Part shown: positions 16,164 to 34,684 of the stretch, piece by piece
Numbering within the stretch: position 1 is the stretch's first letter
Layout: every line of letters starts with the position of its first letter
Source of the DNA: Gammaproteobacteria bacterium
GTDB taxonomy: Bacteria > Pseudomonadota > Gammaproteobacteria > JAADGQ01
Assembly (NCBI GenBank): GCA_015490755.1
Contig: WFXF01000009.1
Span: 1 to 34,938, forward strand
Length of the DNA stretch: 34,938 nucleotides
Direction: 5' to 3'
Translations under genes and position numbers: made by a program
The notes under the pieces: model-generated
The model's input: the letters and a program-made list of their open reading frames with translations, nothing else
Told to the model about the DNA's origin: nothing
The model's database searches: none

Positions 16164-18170
16164 ATGGCAGGGATATCCTCAATAATCGGTAGTTTATCGG
16201 TACGTACAAAAATTAATCTGATTATTACATTGATCTTTGTCAGTGTAGTGATATTGGTGACTATTTTTACGATGCAACGTACGGAAGAGCGTGTGCTGGA
16301 GCTCGTAACCGATCACACAAAAAGTATCACAAATTTTTATTTCGATAGCTTGAATACCATGATGTTGACAGACACGATGGATCAACGCTCTATTCTACGT
16401 AAAAAAATTCTACAAGATCCTGATGTTTTAGAAGCTCGAGTAATACGAGGCCAAACGGTTGTTGATCAACATGGCCCTGGTTTACCTGAAGAGTATCCCG
16501 TCGATGAATATGATCGGCGCGGACTATTGGGGGAGGAGATTATATTTACTGAGCAGCGTAATAGTGGACGTGTAGTGACTGTATTAACACCCATTCGAGC
16601 CACTAGTGATGGTGATACTAATTGCCTGGCTTGCCATAACGTACCTTCAGGTACCGTTAATGGCCTGGTTCGAGTGAGTTATTCTCTGGCTGATATTGAT
16701 GAAAATATGGCTCAAGAGATGTGGGCTGCTGCGCTTGCAAACTTATTGTTGATGATTATAGGTCTGTTTTTGGCTAATTTTTTATTACGTCGCTGGATAT
16801 CAGAGCCGCTTGCAGGTTTGATTAAAGTTGTTAAACGTCGAGCTAATGGCGATAGCAGTGCCAGAGCTATTGTAAACAGTTCTGATGAGGTGGGACGATT
16901 AGGCGCTGCTTTAAACACCATGTCTGATAAATTAAATGATAGCTTTCGACGCGAACAAGAGGTTGCACGAGATTTACGCCATAAAGTTGATGTATTGCTC
17001 AAAGTCGTGAGTAGAGCTGCTAAAGGTGATTTAGAGACTTCAATTCCCATATCAAAGGAAGGGGCGATTGGTGAGCTGGGTGTTGGGTTGGAAATCATGC
17101 TGGGTAATTTGCGTACCCTGATGGATGAGAGACGGACTGCAGTTGAAGAATTAAAAGAAAAAGTTGGAGTGATATTGGGTGTAGTAACACGTGCAGCCGA
17201 AGGTGACTTGACAGGAAAAGTGACTGTGAGTGGGGACGATAGCATTGGCCAACTGGCTATGGGTGTTCAGCGAATGGTTGATCGTTTGAATGCTTTGGTT
17301 ACGCAGGTACAGCAATCTGGAATTAAAGTGACTTCATCTGCAACACAAATAGCAGCAACAGCAAAGCAACAGGAGGCAACATTTACTGAACAGGCTGCGA
17401 CAATTAATGAAATCGTTGCAACAGCAACAGAGATTTCGGCAACTAATAAAGATCTTGTATTAACGATGGATGAGGTTTCTTCAGTCTCTGAGCAAACAGC
17501 TGCTGCGGCAAATAGTGGGCAAGGTGGTTTGGCTAAAATGGAAGAGACAATGCTACAGGTTGTTAATGCCTCGGCATCTATTGCGAATAAATTAGAGGTG
17601 CTGAATGAAAAAGCGAACAACATAAACACTGTGGTTACTACAATTACCAAGGTAGCAGATCAAACAAACCTGTTATCACTCAATGCGGCTATTGAAGCAG
17701 AAAAAGCAGGTGAATATGGTGTGGGTTTTGCAGTAGTAGCTACTGAAATTCGTCGGCTGGCTGACCAGACAGCTGGGGCAACTCTGGATATTGAACAGAT
17801 GGTTAAAGAAGTTCAAACCGCAGTTTCAGCAGGCGTAATGAGTGTTGATAAATTTTCAAAGGAGGTGCAAAACAGTGTCACAGTCGTGAGTGATGTAGGG
17901 CATGACCTCACACAAATCATTGAACAAGTTCAGGCATTGACACCACGTTTTGAGAGTGTACATGAAGGAATGCAGTTTCAAGCCCAAGGTGCTGAGCAAA
18001 TCAAACAAGCGATTGTGCAATTAAACAATGCGGCACAGCAAACAGTTGAATCTCTTAATCAGTCCAGTTCCTCAATTGATCATTTGAATGACGCTGCACG
18101 TGGTCTGCAGCAGGGAGTCAGTCAATTTAAAGTATTAAGCACCCATGAAAAAGAGTCAGAGGTGATTTAA
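16164..18170 (+). CDS. wspA: WspA-like chemoreceptor with periplasmic haem c domain
   Basis: This is a membrane chemoreceptor of 668 residues. Transmembrane helices lie at about 17-36 and 187-208, enclosing a periplasmic domain of roughly 150 residues. That domain contains C154-L-A-C157-H158, a c-type haem attachment motif, followed by the GTVNGLVRVSYS strand seen in haem-bearing periplasmic sensors. A HAMP domain (about 209-262) and two HAMP-like repeats (275-330, 335-385; each with RAA-x-GD) follow. The signalling hairpin has the tip at about 499-545 with EAEKAGEYGVGF and EIRRLADQTAGATLDIE, characteristic of WspA. No CheR-docking pentapeptide is present. Known: Pseudomonas WspA senses surface contact. 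Inferred: this one senses redox state, oxygen or NO through haem. Identity as a Wsp receptor is strong; the ligand is unknown. Confidence 0.9.
   Translation: MAGISSIIGSLSVRTKINLIITLIFVSVVILVTIFTMQRTEERVLELVTDHTKSITNFYFDSLNTMMLTDTMDQRSILRKKILQDPDVLEARVIRGQTVVDQHGPGLPEEYPVDEYDRRGLLGEEIIFTEQRNSGRVVTVLTPIRATSDGDTNCLACHNVPSGTVNGLVRVSYSLADIDENMAQEMWAAALANLLLMIIGLFLANFLLRRWISEPLAGLIKVVKRRANGDSSARAIVNSSDEVGRLGAALNTMSDKLNDSFRREQEVARDLRHKVDVLLKVVSRAAKGDLETSIPISKEGAIGELGVGLEIMLGNLRTLMDERRTAVEELKEKVGVILGVVTRAAEGDLTGKVTVSGDDSIGQLAMGVQRMVDRLNALVTQVQQSGIKVTSSATQIAATAKQQEATFTEQAATINEIVATATEISATNKDLVLTMDEVSSVSEQTAAAANSGQGGLAKMEETMLQVVNASASIANKLEVLNEKANNINTVVTTITKVADQTNLLSLNAAIEAEKAGEYGVGFAVVATEIRRLADQTAGATLDIEQMVKEVQTAVSAGVMSVDKFSKEVQNSVTVVSDVGHDLTQIIEQVQALTPRFESVHEGMQFQAQGAEQIKQAIVQLNNAAQQTVESLNQSSSSIDHLNDAARGLQQGVSQFKVLSTHEKESEVI
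16623..16637 (+). other. CxxCH haem c site in the receptor sensor domain
   Basis: These bases encode Cys154-Leu-Ala-Cys157-His158 between the two membrane helices of the receptor, i.e. on the periplasmic side where cytochrome c maturation attaches haem. It is the only such motif in the protein. Chemoreceptors with one periplasmic haem c are known from Desulfovibrio (DcrA) and Geobacter (GSU0582, GSU0935). Confidence 0.85.
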
Positions 18171-27737: not shown

Positions 27738-28736
27738 TTAAATTTGGGATAAAACCAGTGAAGCTGCGGCTTCTATAAAGTCCGGTCTGCTATTAAGCGC
27801 AGGAATATAATGATATTTTTTACCCCCGGATTTAATAAAATATGATCGGTTTTCTACTGCAACTTCTTCCAGTGTCTCTAAACAGTCAGCACTAAATCCC
27901 GGGCAGATGATATCAATGCTTTTGGTGCCATTTTGGGCGAGCTCTTTAAGTGTTTCATCCGTATAGGGCTTTAACCACTCTGCGCGACCAAAGCGTGACT
28001 GAAAGGTGGCAAGCCATTGCCGCTCAGAAAGCCCCAGTTGCTGAGCAACGTTTTGTGCTGTTTCCATGCATTCATCGAAGTAGGGGTCACCCTGGGTGTG
28101 GTGATGTTTGGGGCAGCCATGAAAAGAGAGTATTAATTTCTCTGCCTGGCCGTGTTTTGTCCAATGCTCCTGAATTGAACTGCATAATGCATTGATATAT
28201 TTGGGGTGAGTGTAGTATCGGCTGATAAATTGCAAGTGAGGCAGATTACGCCAGGTTTTGAATGTATTTGCAATTTCATCGAAAGTAGATGCAGCGGTTG
28301 TGCATGAGTATTGAGGGTATAATGGTAAAACGATAATGCGTTTCACACCATGCTGTCTGAGTTTTTCCAGTGCTGAAGGGATGGATGGATTGCCGTAACG
28401 CATTCCCAGTTCGACTTTTGCTGTACCTCCCAGCCTTTTTTGCAGAGCATCTTTTTGTGCCCGGGATATGACGAGCAGAGGCGAACCTTCATCAGTCCAG
28501 ACTGACTTGTAAAGTTCGGCTGAGCGGCGTGGACGTGTGCGTAAAATAATGCCATGTAATATTAACCACCATGGAATACGTGGTATATCAACAATACGGG
28601 GATCCCATAAAAACTGTTTTAAATAGCGACGTACTGCTTTAGGTGTGGGCGCATCAGGGGTTCCTAAATTAGTGATTAAAACTCCCACGGATGAATCTTT
28701 ATCGTGCGTTGGATTATTATTGGTTATTTCAGTCAT
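27738..28736 (-). CDS. hemH: Ferrochelatase
   Basis: Ferrochelatase inserts ferrous iron into protoporphyrin IX, the last step of haem synthesis. The 332-residue protein (320 in E. coli) has the substrate region GVLITNLGTPDAPT, the catalytic-His motif LSFHGCPKHHH, then TFQSRFGRAEWLKPYT and CPGFSADCLETLEE with the conserved Glu. The ATG at 28736 is clear. The PDE gene follows with a gap of 30 bases to the end of its longest open frame, so the two may share a transcript. Haem supply matters for the two c-haem proteins encoded nearby, but hemH placement may be chance. Confidence 0.95.
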   Translation of the reverse strand: MTEITNNNPTHDKDSSVGVLITNLGTPDAPTPKAVRRYLKQFLWDPRIVDIPRIPWWLILHGIILRTRPRRSAELYKSVWTDEGSPLLVISRAQKDALQKRLGGTAKVELGMRYGNPSIPSALEKLRQHGVKRIIVLPLYPQYSCTTAASTFDEIANTFKTWRNLPHLQFISRYYTHPKYINALCSSIQEHWTKHGQAEKLILSFHGCPKHHHTQGDPYFDECMETAQNVAQQLGLSERQWLATFQSRFGRAEWLKPYTDETLKELAQNGTKSIDIICPGFSADCLETLEEVAVENRSYFIKSGGKKYHYIPALNSRPDFIEAAASLVLSQI

Positions 28737-32827: not shown

Positions 32828-34684
32828 TTATCTTCCTCCCCAGCCCCATAAAGACCACCAGCTCCAGATACTCCACCATGATGGTCGGCCGTTTCCGGCA
32901 TCGTTGCAATCAATATCAGAAGATGCCTTACCAAACAGTCCATTAATGGTGATCCCGCTGATACCTTCACTACAACTGGCAACCACCCTGTTATCTGACC
33001 ATGAATCAACAGAACAGTAAACGCTGCTTTCATCATATATCCCCAGATTATTTGCACCATCCACGTATTTATCACCAAACCCTGATCCTGTGATGGTTGC
33101 TGTACCATCGTCACAAAGGGCTGAATTGATTCTGGTTTCACGAGTCACCAGAAAACTGATGGCAGGACTATATACGGCATAACCGCCTCGACCTCTGACA
33201 ACAGAGAGTTCGTAGTTGTCAGCAACAATATTTTTTGGAAGAGTGGTTCGGGCAGATGTAAAATCATTTTCCAGCATTGCAACTTCAGTGATCCGACCAT
33301 CTGTTCCTGTCAGCTCCAGCCGTGTACTCGGGCCGTTTAAACTGGTTCCTTTAATGAAAATTTCGGTTTCTTTACCTTCTATTGCAACGGTCACATTTAT
33401 TTCAGCAATATTGGCTGCTGTGCCAGGGAAACTAATCATTTCATCCAGAGACCGTGCGCTGGCAGCACGATAAGTGTTTCCACTCCTGTAGTTGAGGTGA
33501 CATCCATTGCAATTAAGAGTATTGCCTACATGACCCATAAAAGGAGGATCCTGGCCTATATTAATGCCATCCCCCTCAGCATCGAACTCAATAGCATGCA
33601 GAGTGCTGATGCCATGACACACTTCGCAGCCGCGGATTGTATAATCAGGAGGATCAAAAGGAGCATGGCAAAGATCACAGCCATGAACTGACCCACTGCC
33701 TGGTTGTCCGACTCCAGTGCTATGGTGATTAGACATATTGCTGCCAATATCACTTTTAGCAAGTCCGGTACCAGCTTGCACTGCATCTCCCGGATTCTCT
33801 CCTCCAAAATGGCAATGTTCACAATTACCTGTACGGCGGCCACCTTCCACGCCATCTGGAACGAGTATTGCCTTTATCTTGCCACTGGTATCCTTCTCAT
33901 ATCTGTAACGAGGCGGATTGATATTAAACTGGCCATCAAGTACCTCTGGATTATAATAGCGCTCACCGAAATCGGGGCAATCGGAAAAGATGAATTTAAG
34001 CATAGGGATCCAGTTTTCACTATCATAATTATCACCAGGCCATGGTGTGATCATCGAAATATCATAAAAATTACGATCTCCATCAGAGGCCACTTCTCCA
34101 CAACGACGCGCTTTTCCAGGATCAGGTGCATAAACGGGATCAGGAATACGATGTTCACCAGTAGCATCATTCACCAAACTGCCATGGCATGTATGGCATA
34201 ACTTTTTTTGTGCCTTGTCTGTCAGATGGTGAACAGTTGCAATCAATTTACCATCTCTTTTTTTCTGCTCATGGCAATTGAGGCAATCACGAAACTGGGG
34301 GGATGATGGTTCTTCAGCAAATGCAAAATAGCCTCCTAATGGCCTTGAGGTATCTTCAACCCAGTCAATCAAGTGACAAGTGATGCATTTATGGGTTCCA
34401 TCAGGCGATTTTTCAGGGTATTGCGATGCAGTAAATTCCATATCAATAGGTGTATCAACCCGAAGGTGATGTCTGTCTGGTAAGTAACCTGTCTTAACAG
34501 GAGCAGGGGCATTTTCCGGGTCTCCATGACATACAAGACAGGTCTGAAATGTCATGTCTGAAAACTTTCCATCAGGTATGCCCAGATTTTGATTTACTGG
34601 CGGTGGAGGTAATTTGGCCCAGGTTTGGCCTGTTGTAATCATAAAAGCCGTTAGTAATATTATTTTTATGGCTATTTTTAGCAT
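32828..34684 (-). CDS. Secreted eight-haem cytochrome c with TIG-like C-terminal part
   Basis: The 618-residue protein has a signal peptide (about 1-23, ending TWA). It has eight CxxCH motifs, at residues 49, 100, 134, 163, 288, 336, 353 and 392 (first Cys), so eight c-type haems in the periplasm or outside the cell. Additional His residues (for example HRI, NHH) could be distal ligands. From about 400 to 595 there are no haem motifs; two Ig/TIG-like stretches occur (INVTVAIEGKETEIFIKG, ATITGSGFGD) and several extra Cys. The last 20 residues hold seven Trp and end GWGGR. It does not match the well-known octahaem reductases by arrangement that I can see; the function is probably electron transfer or redox catalysis, partner unknown. 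Confidence 0.85.
   Translation of the reverse strand: MLKIAIKIILLTAFMITTGQTWAKLPPPPVNQNLGIPDGKFSDMTFQTCLVCHGDPENAPAPVKTGYLPDRHHLRVDTPIDMEFTASQYPEKSPDGTHKCITCHLIDWVEDTSRPLGGYFAFAEEPSSPQFRDCLNCHEQKKRDGKLIATVHHLTDKAQKKLCHTCHGSLVNDATGEHRIPDPVYAPDPGKARRCGEVASDGDRNFYDISMITPWPGDNYDSENWIPMLKFIFSDCPDFGERYYNPEVLDGQFNINPPRYRYEKDTSGKIKAILVPDGVEGGRRTGNCEHCHFGGENPGDAVQAGTGLAKSDIGSNMSNHHSTGVGQPGSGSVHGCDLCHAPFDPPDYTIRGCEVCHGISTLHAIEFDAEGDGINIGQDPPFMGHVGNTLNCNGCHLNYRSGNTYRAASARSLDEMISFPGTAANIAEINVTVAIEGKETEIFIKGTSLNGPSTRLELTGTDGRITEVAMLENDFTSARTTLPKNIVADNYELSVVRGRGGYAVYSPAISFLVTRETRINSALCDDGTATITGSGFGDKYVDGANNLGIYDESSVYCSVDSWSDNRVVASCSEGISGITINGLFGKASSDIDCNDAGNGRPSWWSIWSWWSLWGWGGR

Follow-up and report, generated by a model that had tools for sequence, protein, structure and literature searches.

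Results

An octahaem cytochrome gene at the end of the window

The window, that is the whole stretch of 34,938 nucleotides analysed here, is one contig of a gammaproteobacterial genome (G000, 99.67% complete). An omcZ-type gene, omcZ1, lies close to its end, and the contig stops (34938) 254 bases upstream of this gene. The gene and the features of its product are as follows.

32828..34684, minus strand: omcZ-type gene (omcZ1), precursor of 618 residues (ORF with ATG start; phmmer to OmcZ, PDB 8d9m/7lq5; profile search)
34616..34684, minus strand: probable signal peptide, residues 1-23 (sequence; hydrophobic helix modelled at 2-22; putative cleavage site)
33485..34609, minus strand: octahaem OmcZ core, residues 26-400, with PPPPVNQ at its start (alignments; VIA-align to 8d9m)
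34526..34540, minus strand: haem motif 1, CLVCH, residues 49-53 (motif scan)
34373..34387, minus strand: haem motif 2, CITCH, residues 100-104, canonical (motif scan, alignment)
34271..34285, minus strand: haem motif 3, CLNCH, residues 134-138 (motif scan)
34184..34198, minus strand: haem motif 4, CHTCH, residues 163-167 (motif scan)
33824..34183, minus strand: 120-residue insert, residues 168-287, with Cys195 and Cys236 (motif spacing; subfamily tree)
33809..33823, minus strand: haem motif 5, CEHCH, residues 288-292 (motif scan)
33665..33679, minus strand: haem motif 6, CDLCH, residues 336-340 (motif scan)
33614..33628, minus strand: haem motif 7, CEVCH, residues 353-357 (motif scan)
33497..33511, minus strand: haem motif 8, CNGCH, residues 392-396 (motif scan)
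33140..33415, minus strand: first Ig/TIG-like beta-sandwich, residues ~424-515 (AlphaFold2 model, structural neighbours)
32906..33139, minus strand: second Ig/TIG-like beta-sandwich, residues ~516-593, with Cys 524, 557, 571 and 593 (model)
32831..32890, minus strand: Trp-rich C-terminal tail GRPSWWSIWSWWSLWGWGGR, residues 599-618 (alignments, tail HMM; low-confidence helix at 603-614)

A first-pass annotation had described eight CxxCH motifs in residues 49-396, a motif-free insert of 120 residues between haems 4 and 5, Ig/TIG-like domains with extra cysteines and a Trp-rich tail, and this architecture was borne out. The motifs begin at residues 49, 100, 134, 163, 288, 336, 353 and 392, with a measured spacing of 120 between the fourth and the fifth; in 20,000 shuffled versions of the protein, CxxCH motifs averaged 0.02 and never exceeded 2, as compared to the 8 observed. 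Extra cysteines occur within the insert (195, 236) and C-terminal of the haem part (524, 557, 571, 593). The latter four belong to the beta-sandwiches modelled by AlphaFold2 at residues ~424-592, with a pLDDT of 80-93 in most ten-residue blocks and 67 in one. Plexin and MET are among the proteins whose IPT/TIG or Ig domains are structural neighbours of these sandwiches. The Pfam TIG model scored above its cut-off on the orthologue from a second genome of the genus (G001) and was not listed for the window protein itself. The model of the whole protein, in which haems are not included, is of moderate quality (pLDDT 65).

The cytochrome had also been put forward as a partner, or signal source, for the haem receptor. 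Nothing links the gene to such a role. Among window ORFs of 120 codons or more, the only other one with CxxCH encodes a chemoreceptor, 14 kb away on the other strand, that has a single motif. This methyl-accepting chemotaxis protein (16164-18170, plus strand) carries its CxxCH in the sensor part and possibly contains haem; genes for CheR, a CheA-like kinase and CheB follow. A ferrochelatase gene (27738-28736, minus strand) is found ~4 kb from the cytochrome gene.

The protein belongs to the OmcZ family

A phmmer search of PDB sequences matched the protein to OmcZ of Geobacter sulfurreducens (8d9m, 4.4e-28; 7lq5, 1.5e-16), the matches flanking the insert. A profile built from seven paralogues and orthologues retrieved OmcZ at 7.9e-57, covering OmcZ residues 3-56 and 107-458 of 473. 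VIA-align superposed residues 27-403 of the model on 8d9m over 230 residues with 35% identity, a Z score of 7.6 and an rmsd of 8.2 Å; the tool rates a Z of this size as middling, and it is identity and order that carry the assignment. Foldseek alone returned the Ig domains, with OmcZ absent among the best 50 matches listed, and the VIA structural second look did list OmcZ. Scans of the full protein against Pfam and NCBIfam gave no family above cut-off, and the octahaem families proposed for comparison (HAO, OTR, ONR) were not listed by either at E ≤ 1. The arrangement, which had been thought to fit no named protein, thus has a clear full-length match to a characterised cytochrome family by phmmer, profile, alignment and structure, the outcome that the first-pass annotation had named as refuting its view. 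A scan of viral contigs for relatives found none.

Homologues were aligned from ORFs matched by the OmcZ profile. Thirty-six of these were dropped, having no start pattern for automatic trimming; they include genuine OmcZ proteins whose start varies, copies truncated at the 5′ end, five decahaem relatives, tetrahaem cytochromes and tailed proteases. Of the 62 distinct ORFs that passed trimming, 48 (window gene included) were aligned and 14, all untailed homologues, were left out; the untrimmed L124 and L151 were added by hand, giving 50 rows. The Cys and His residues of the CxxCH motifs are invariant in all 50, save for C100 (48/50), as are eight further histidines (H72, H73, H152, H153, H320, H321, H363 and H385). 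In the published OmcZ structure, eight His pairs ligate the haems (PMC9473688). The eight CxxCH motifs and the eight conserved His, which are candidate ligands by sequence, fit bis-His ligation of eight haems. Sequence and domain order make the window protein a member of the OmcZ family, the nanowire cytochromes known from Geobacter. OmcZ and its spread are already known; the Trp-rich tail appears to be the new part.

Haem motif 2 and the insert

Haem 2 of G. sulfurreducens OmcZ is bound by a CX14CH motif, whereas the window protein has a canonical CITCH. We did not take CX14CH as defining membership of the family, because a subset of Borg OmcZ also lacks it (PMC11208441) and the first Cys of the canonical motif is present in 48 of the 50 aligned homologues. 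The insert marks a subfamily: a spacing of 120-128 residues between motifs 4 and 5, together with two extra cysteines (195 and 236), is seen in 9 of 28 tailed proteins. These nine, the window protein among them, form one clade (support 100/100). Spacings of 40, 52-53 or 100 residues occur in the other tailed proteins, one nine-haem row not being measured. Lacking the CX14CH loop of the Geobacter subunit interface and carrying a 120-residue insert, the window protein cannot be assumed to use the same polymer interface, which counts against a nanowire.

The number of haem motifs varies around the family. Tailed OmcZ versions with nine CxxCH are encoded at L072 4448-6055, L119 2547-4373 and L120 3247-4962. 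Matches to the OmcZ profile with ten CxxCH, ~325-377 residues long and without Ig domains or tail, were found in L167, L169, L170, L171 and L172, all from Geobacter and other Deltaproteobacteria.

Paralogues and the omcZ gene cluster

OmcZ is encoded four times in the window genome: by the window gene, by two paralogues on contig C82, of which one (omcZ2) is truncated where the contig stops, and by a further paralogue on C77. The ends of the window contig (34938) and of C82 may flank one unassembled stretch. G001 also has four paralogues, with the gene order omcZ1-PPIase-tetrahaem-omcZ2-omcZ3, in which a PpiC-type isomerase and a tetrahaem cytochrome lie between the first and the second omcZ.

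A scan of genome contigs recovered 71 loci, from gammaproteobacteria (including Sedimenticola, Thiodiazotropha and Thiomicrorhabdus), Desulfuromonadales, Desulfobulbaceae, Campylobacterales, Methanoperedens and ANME-2. Many of them have the order omcZ-subtilase-isomerase, often with a tetrahaem cytochrome close by, and omcZ operons of this kind are stated to be widespread (PMC9473688). The sister genus also keeps an omcZ-subtilase-PPIase cluster (L078, L110, L113). None of the nine subtilases of the window's genus (Pfam S8; four in G000 and five in G001) is an orthologue of OzpA: they score at most 74 bits against the cluster proteases, as compared to at least 285 bits for nine cluster proteases among themselves. 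OzpA is a frequent companion of OmcZ and does not form part of the protein itself. The G000 assembly, in which the contig end cuts omcZ2, lacks the cluster PPIase, whose gene could sit in the gap beside the truncated omcZ2. A contig gap beside omcZ2 cannot explain the absence of the protease from the G001 cluster. The missing OzpA orthologue counts against a nanowire precursor in this genus, as would the PPIase missing from G000 if no gap hides it. A porin-cytochrome partner, suggested in the first pass, was not found either: a search for MtrB/PioB porins was negative in both genomes of the genus, which also counts against that reading, and gave a single weak match in G374.

Several other genes accompany the clusters. 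Tetrahaem cytochromes with a Gly/Met-rich end are encoded beside omcZ at L019 11654-12271, L077 5183-5842 and L078 4693-5298, and similar genes occur near omcZ in many lineages. Secreted repeat proteins lie near the cluster in both genomes of the genus (L017 3187-7613, L019 19182-19901), with two GlyGly-CTERM-like ends, and further cytochromes are found at L017 7773-11080.

A Trp-rich tail marks a single OmcZ clade

The window protein has 7 Trp among its final 16 residues. The seven paralogues and orthologues first aligned all terminate in GRPxWWSxWxWxxxWGWxGR, and the tail consensus over the 20 C-terminal residues is GRPxWWSxWxWxxxWxWxxR. Six Trp and the terminal Arg are invariant in all 15 OmcZ tails aligned from two genera, and every OmcZ copy seen in the window's genus keeps the tail. 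In the haem-domain tree, the 28 tailed OmcZ proteins form one side of one branch (99/100) with the 22 untailed ones outside, and tail presence is a single change in 100% of 200 bootstrap trees.

Tails were searched for with a 22-position HMM, which replaced an earlier search of DNA for a Trp pattern that gave many chance matches. The HMM found tails in 4 of 369 genomes of the class, identical to the four that hold close OmcZ relatives, and in 1 of 398 genomes of the phylum, the window's own. It found them also in 8 of 12 genomes from the order of G212, the eight all belonging to one genus and the other four genomes having none. By its sequence distribution, the tailed OmcZ is a single clade within two gammaproteobacterial genera.

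The tail occurs on unrelated, probably exported proteins

In whole-genome searches the tail HMM also picked out proteins other than OmcZ: in G000 an M23 peptidase (E 3.3e-9), in G001 a polysaccharide lyase of PF14099 (1.5e-9), and in G212 an amidase (9.1e-9). The tail has no counterpart on the protein encoded beside the G001 lyase gene, which looks similar by eye. A further tailed protein, in G374, is called an amidase because it resembles the one of G212, and G000 has an amidase-like ORF with a diverged tail end. In the sister group, OzpA-like proteases carry a looser or shortened tail (L113, L110 and L077; E 0.0004, 0.0005 and 0.17). The last Ig/TIG domain and the tail are common to OmcZ and these proteases (84-98 bits), suggesting that enzyme and substrate are brought together.

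Examination of 8,718 ORF C-termini gave 42 distinct tail matches (E ≤ 1), comprising 34 cytochromes and eight ORFs without CxxCH, one of which is a decayed fragment. This fragment, which looks like an amidase end of 64 codons with the Trp tail in an otherwise unrelated place (L102 1387-1581; G212:C37:58924), was not counted as a protein. The M23 peptidase, the lyase, the G212 amidase and a protease have signal-peptide-like N-termini on inspection. At the 14 non-Trp codons of the tail, the M23 gene and omcZ4 of the same genome show 4 identical codons, 8 synonymous and 2 non-synonymous differences; the mostly synonymous differences point to selection on the peptide, not to recent copying. The occurrence of each tailed non-cytochrome is sporadic, which counts against the explanation that we favour below.

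Properties of the tail

The predicted energy of transfer of the tail to a membrane interface is about -11 to -13 kcal/mol for 14 residues, and -9.5 for the protease tail. Such strongly favourable values make it plausible that precursors are held at a membrane surface. The predicted tail helix has a pLDDT of ~50 and weak amphipathicity. We considered an amphipathic helix or strand and rejected both, the periodicity being weak for the helix (moment p 0.03-0.35) as well as for the strand (p 0.24-0.81). Three tails submitted alone gave no Pfam or NCBIfam model at E ≤ 1, and in the openly licensed PMC literature we found no report of a Trp-rich OmcZ tail or of a Trp-rich sorting signal. The tail shows a GRP-like motif and an Arg end, with an apolar stretch of only ~14 residues.

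Exosortase, considered as a tail-specific partner, does not appear to be specific: it is present in 7 of 10 tailed genomes and in 1 of 5 untailed ones. A G212 protein near an exosortase has an ordinary PEP-CTERM-like end.

Discussion

In Geobacter, OzpA is the protease that cleaves the OmcZ precursor behind the haem domain; before this cleavage, polymerisation is thought to be blocked by the C-terminal domain (PMC12307469). Maturation thus removes the tandem Ig domains (PMC9473688, PMC12307469). We consider that the window gene probably encodes an OmcZ nanowire precursor, whose tail sends it to the cell envelope, or holds it there, before the haem domain is cut free. The precursor, in the order signal peptide, octahaem electron-wire domain, two Ig/TIG domains and lineage-specific Trp-rich tail, would be exported and then loaded with eight bis-His haems. 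If it behaves as Geobacter OmcZ does, its Ig domains would prevent polymerisation until they are split off by proteolysis behind the haem domain, and the haem domains so released would stack into conductive filaments for extracellular electron transfer. Polymerisation, cutting and tail function are what we infer here. The outer-surface electron transfer that the first-pass annotation drew from the TIG-like domains gains support from the homology to OmcZ; the cell contact offered as its alternative need not follow from these domains, since the Ig domains of OmcZ are removed.

Being located beyond the Ig domains, the tail would act on the precursor and not on the finished wire. It would be a tag for targeting or for retention at the membrane, bringing precursors to an envelope site, to which, in the sister genus, it would also bring some OzpA-like proteases; a few cell-wall and polysaccharide hydrolases would use the same tag. 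Peptidoglycan is the substrate of the amidase and the M23 peptidase, an argument against a destination solely on the outer surface, and the site may be periplasmic. We propose, more tentatively, that the tail is an undescribed sorting or anchoring signal which evolved around OmcZ precursors in uncultured gammaproteobacteria, is common to some proteases and hydrolases, and organises nanowire assembly at one envelope site.

A protein of the OmcZ family need not form a nanowire. The tail could hold an uncut precursor at the outer membrane as a fixed surface cytochrome, the loss of OzpA marking the change. We regard this as rather unlikely, even though it would account for the lack of an OzpA orthologue among the nine subtilases of the genus and for the tail on every OmcZ copy seen there, and even though known interface regions are changed by the insert and by the lack of the CX14CH loop. 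In the sister genus this tail occurs alongside OzpA-like proteases (two with recognisable tails, one with a shortened tail), so that tail and cutting coexist, and G001 keeps the PPIase and the tetrahaem partner.

An improbable alternative is that the tail is a local functional element, an aromatic patch that binds polysaccharide, peptidoglycan or haem, and no sorting or anchoring tag. Tryptophan can stack on sugars, and enzymes acting on peptidoglycan and polysaccharide are among the tailed proteins. However, the tail occupies the extreme C-terminus, mostly with a GRP-like lead motif and, in 15 of 15 OmcZ tails, an Arg end, like known sorting signals; in OmcZ it also follows the Ig domains that Geobacter removes. 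It is very improbable that the tail has no selected function, having come down with OmcZ as a relic and been copied now and then to other genes: its restriction to one OmcZ clade and its sporadic non-OmcZ cargo would fit, but the M23 and OmcZ tails are the same peptide with mostly synonymous DNA differences, and the six Trp and last Arg never vary in the 15 tails. A catalytic octahaem enzyme of the HAO, OTR or ONR type, with nothing but the eight haem motifs in its favour, is hardly conceivable given the clear OmcZ match, the absence of such families at E ≤ 1 in Pfam and NCBIfam, and the fit to bis-His ligation.

Even for Geobacter, the delivery, anchoring and release of cytochrome nanowires are described as an open question (PMC12307469). 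If the tail is a sorting or anchoring signal, a tag on nanowire precursors and on some proteases of the sister genus would offer a direct handle on these three steps. Our analysis extends OmcZ, in up to four copies per set, to two genera of uncultured gammaproteobacteria, and in the window's genus OmcZ is present without a recognisable OzpA (all nine subtilases checked).

Like OmcZ of G. sulfurreducens (GSU2076; PDB 8D9M, 7LQ5), the window protein has a PPPPVNQ start, an octahaem domain, distal His and tandem Ig domains. It differs in its insert with two Cys, its four paralogues, its Trp-rich tail and the lack of an OzpA orthologue in the genus. The OmcZ of Methanoperedens, Borgs and ANME are of the same family, in a cluster with protease and isomerase (PMC11208441, PMC10874420, PMC9012536); unlike the window protein, the Methanoperedens/ANME homologues that we recovered (L162, L168) have no Trp tail. 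As for the tail, it differs from the PEP-CTERM, GlyGly-CTERM and MYXO-CTERM signals in its Trp/Ser-rich stretch of ~14 residues, which is not a full membrane helix, and in having no known signature motif, identified cognate enzyme or NCBIfam match. Nevertheless, it resembles them as a short C-terminal homology on otherwise unrelated exported proteins, built from a lead motif, an apolar stretch and an Arg end (PMC3237569, PMC11980579), and is possibly a new kind of C-terminal tag.
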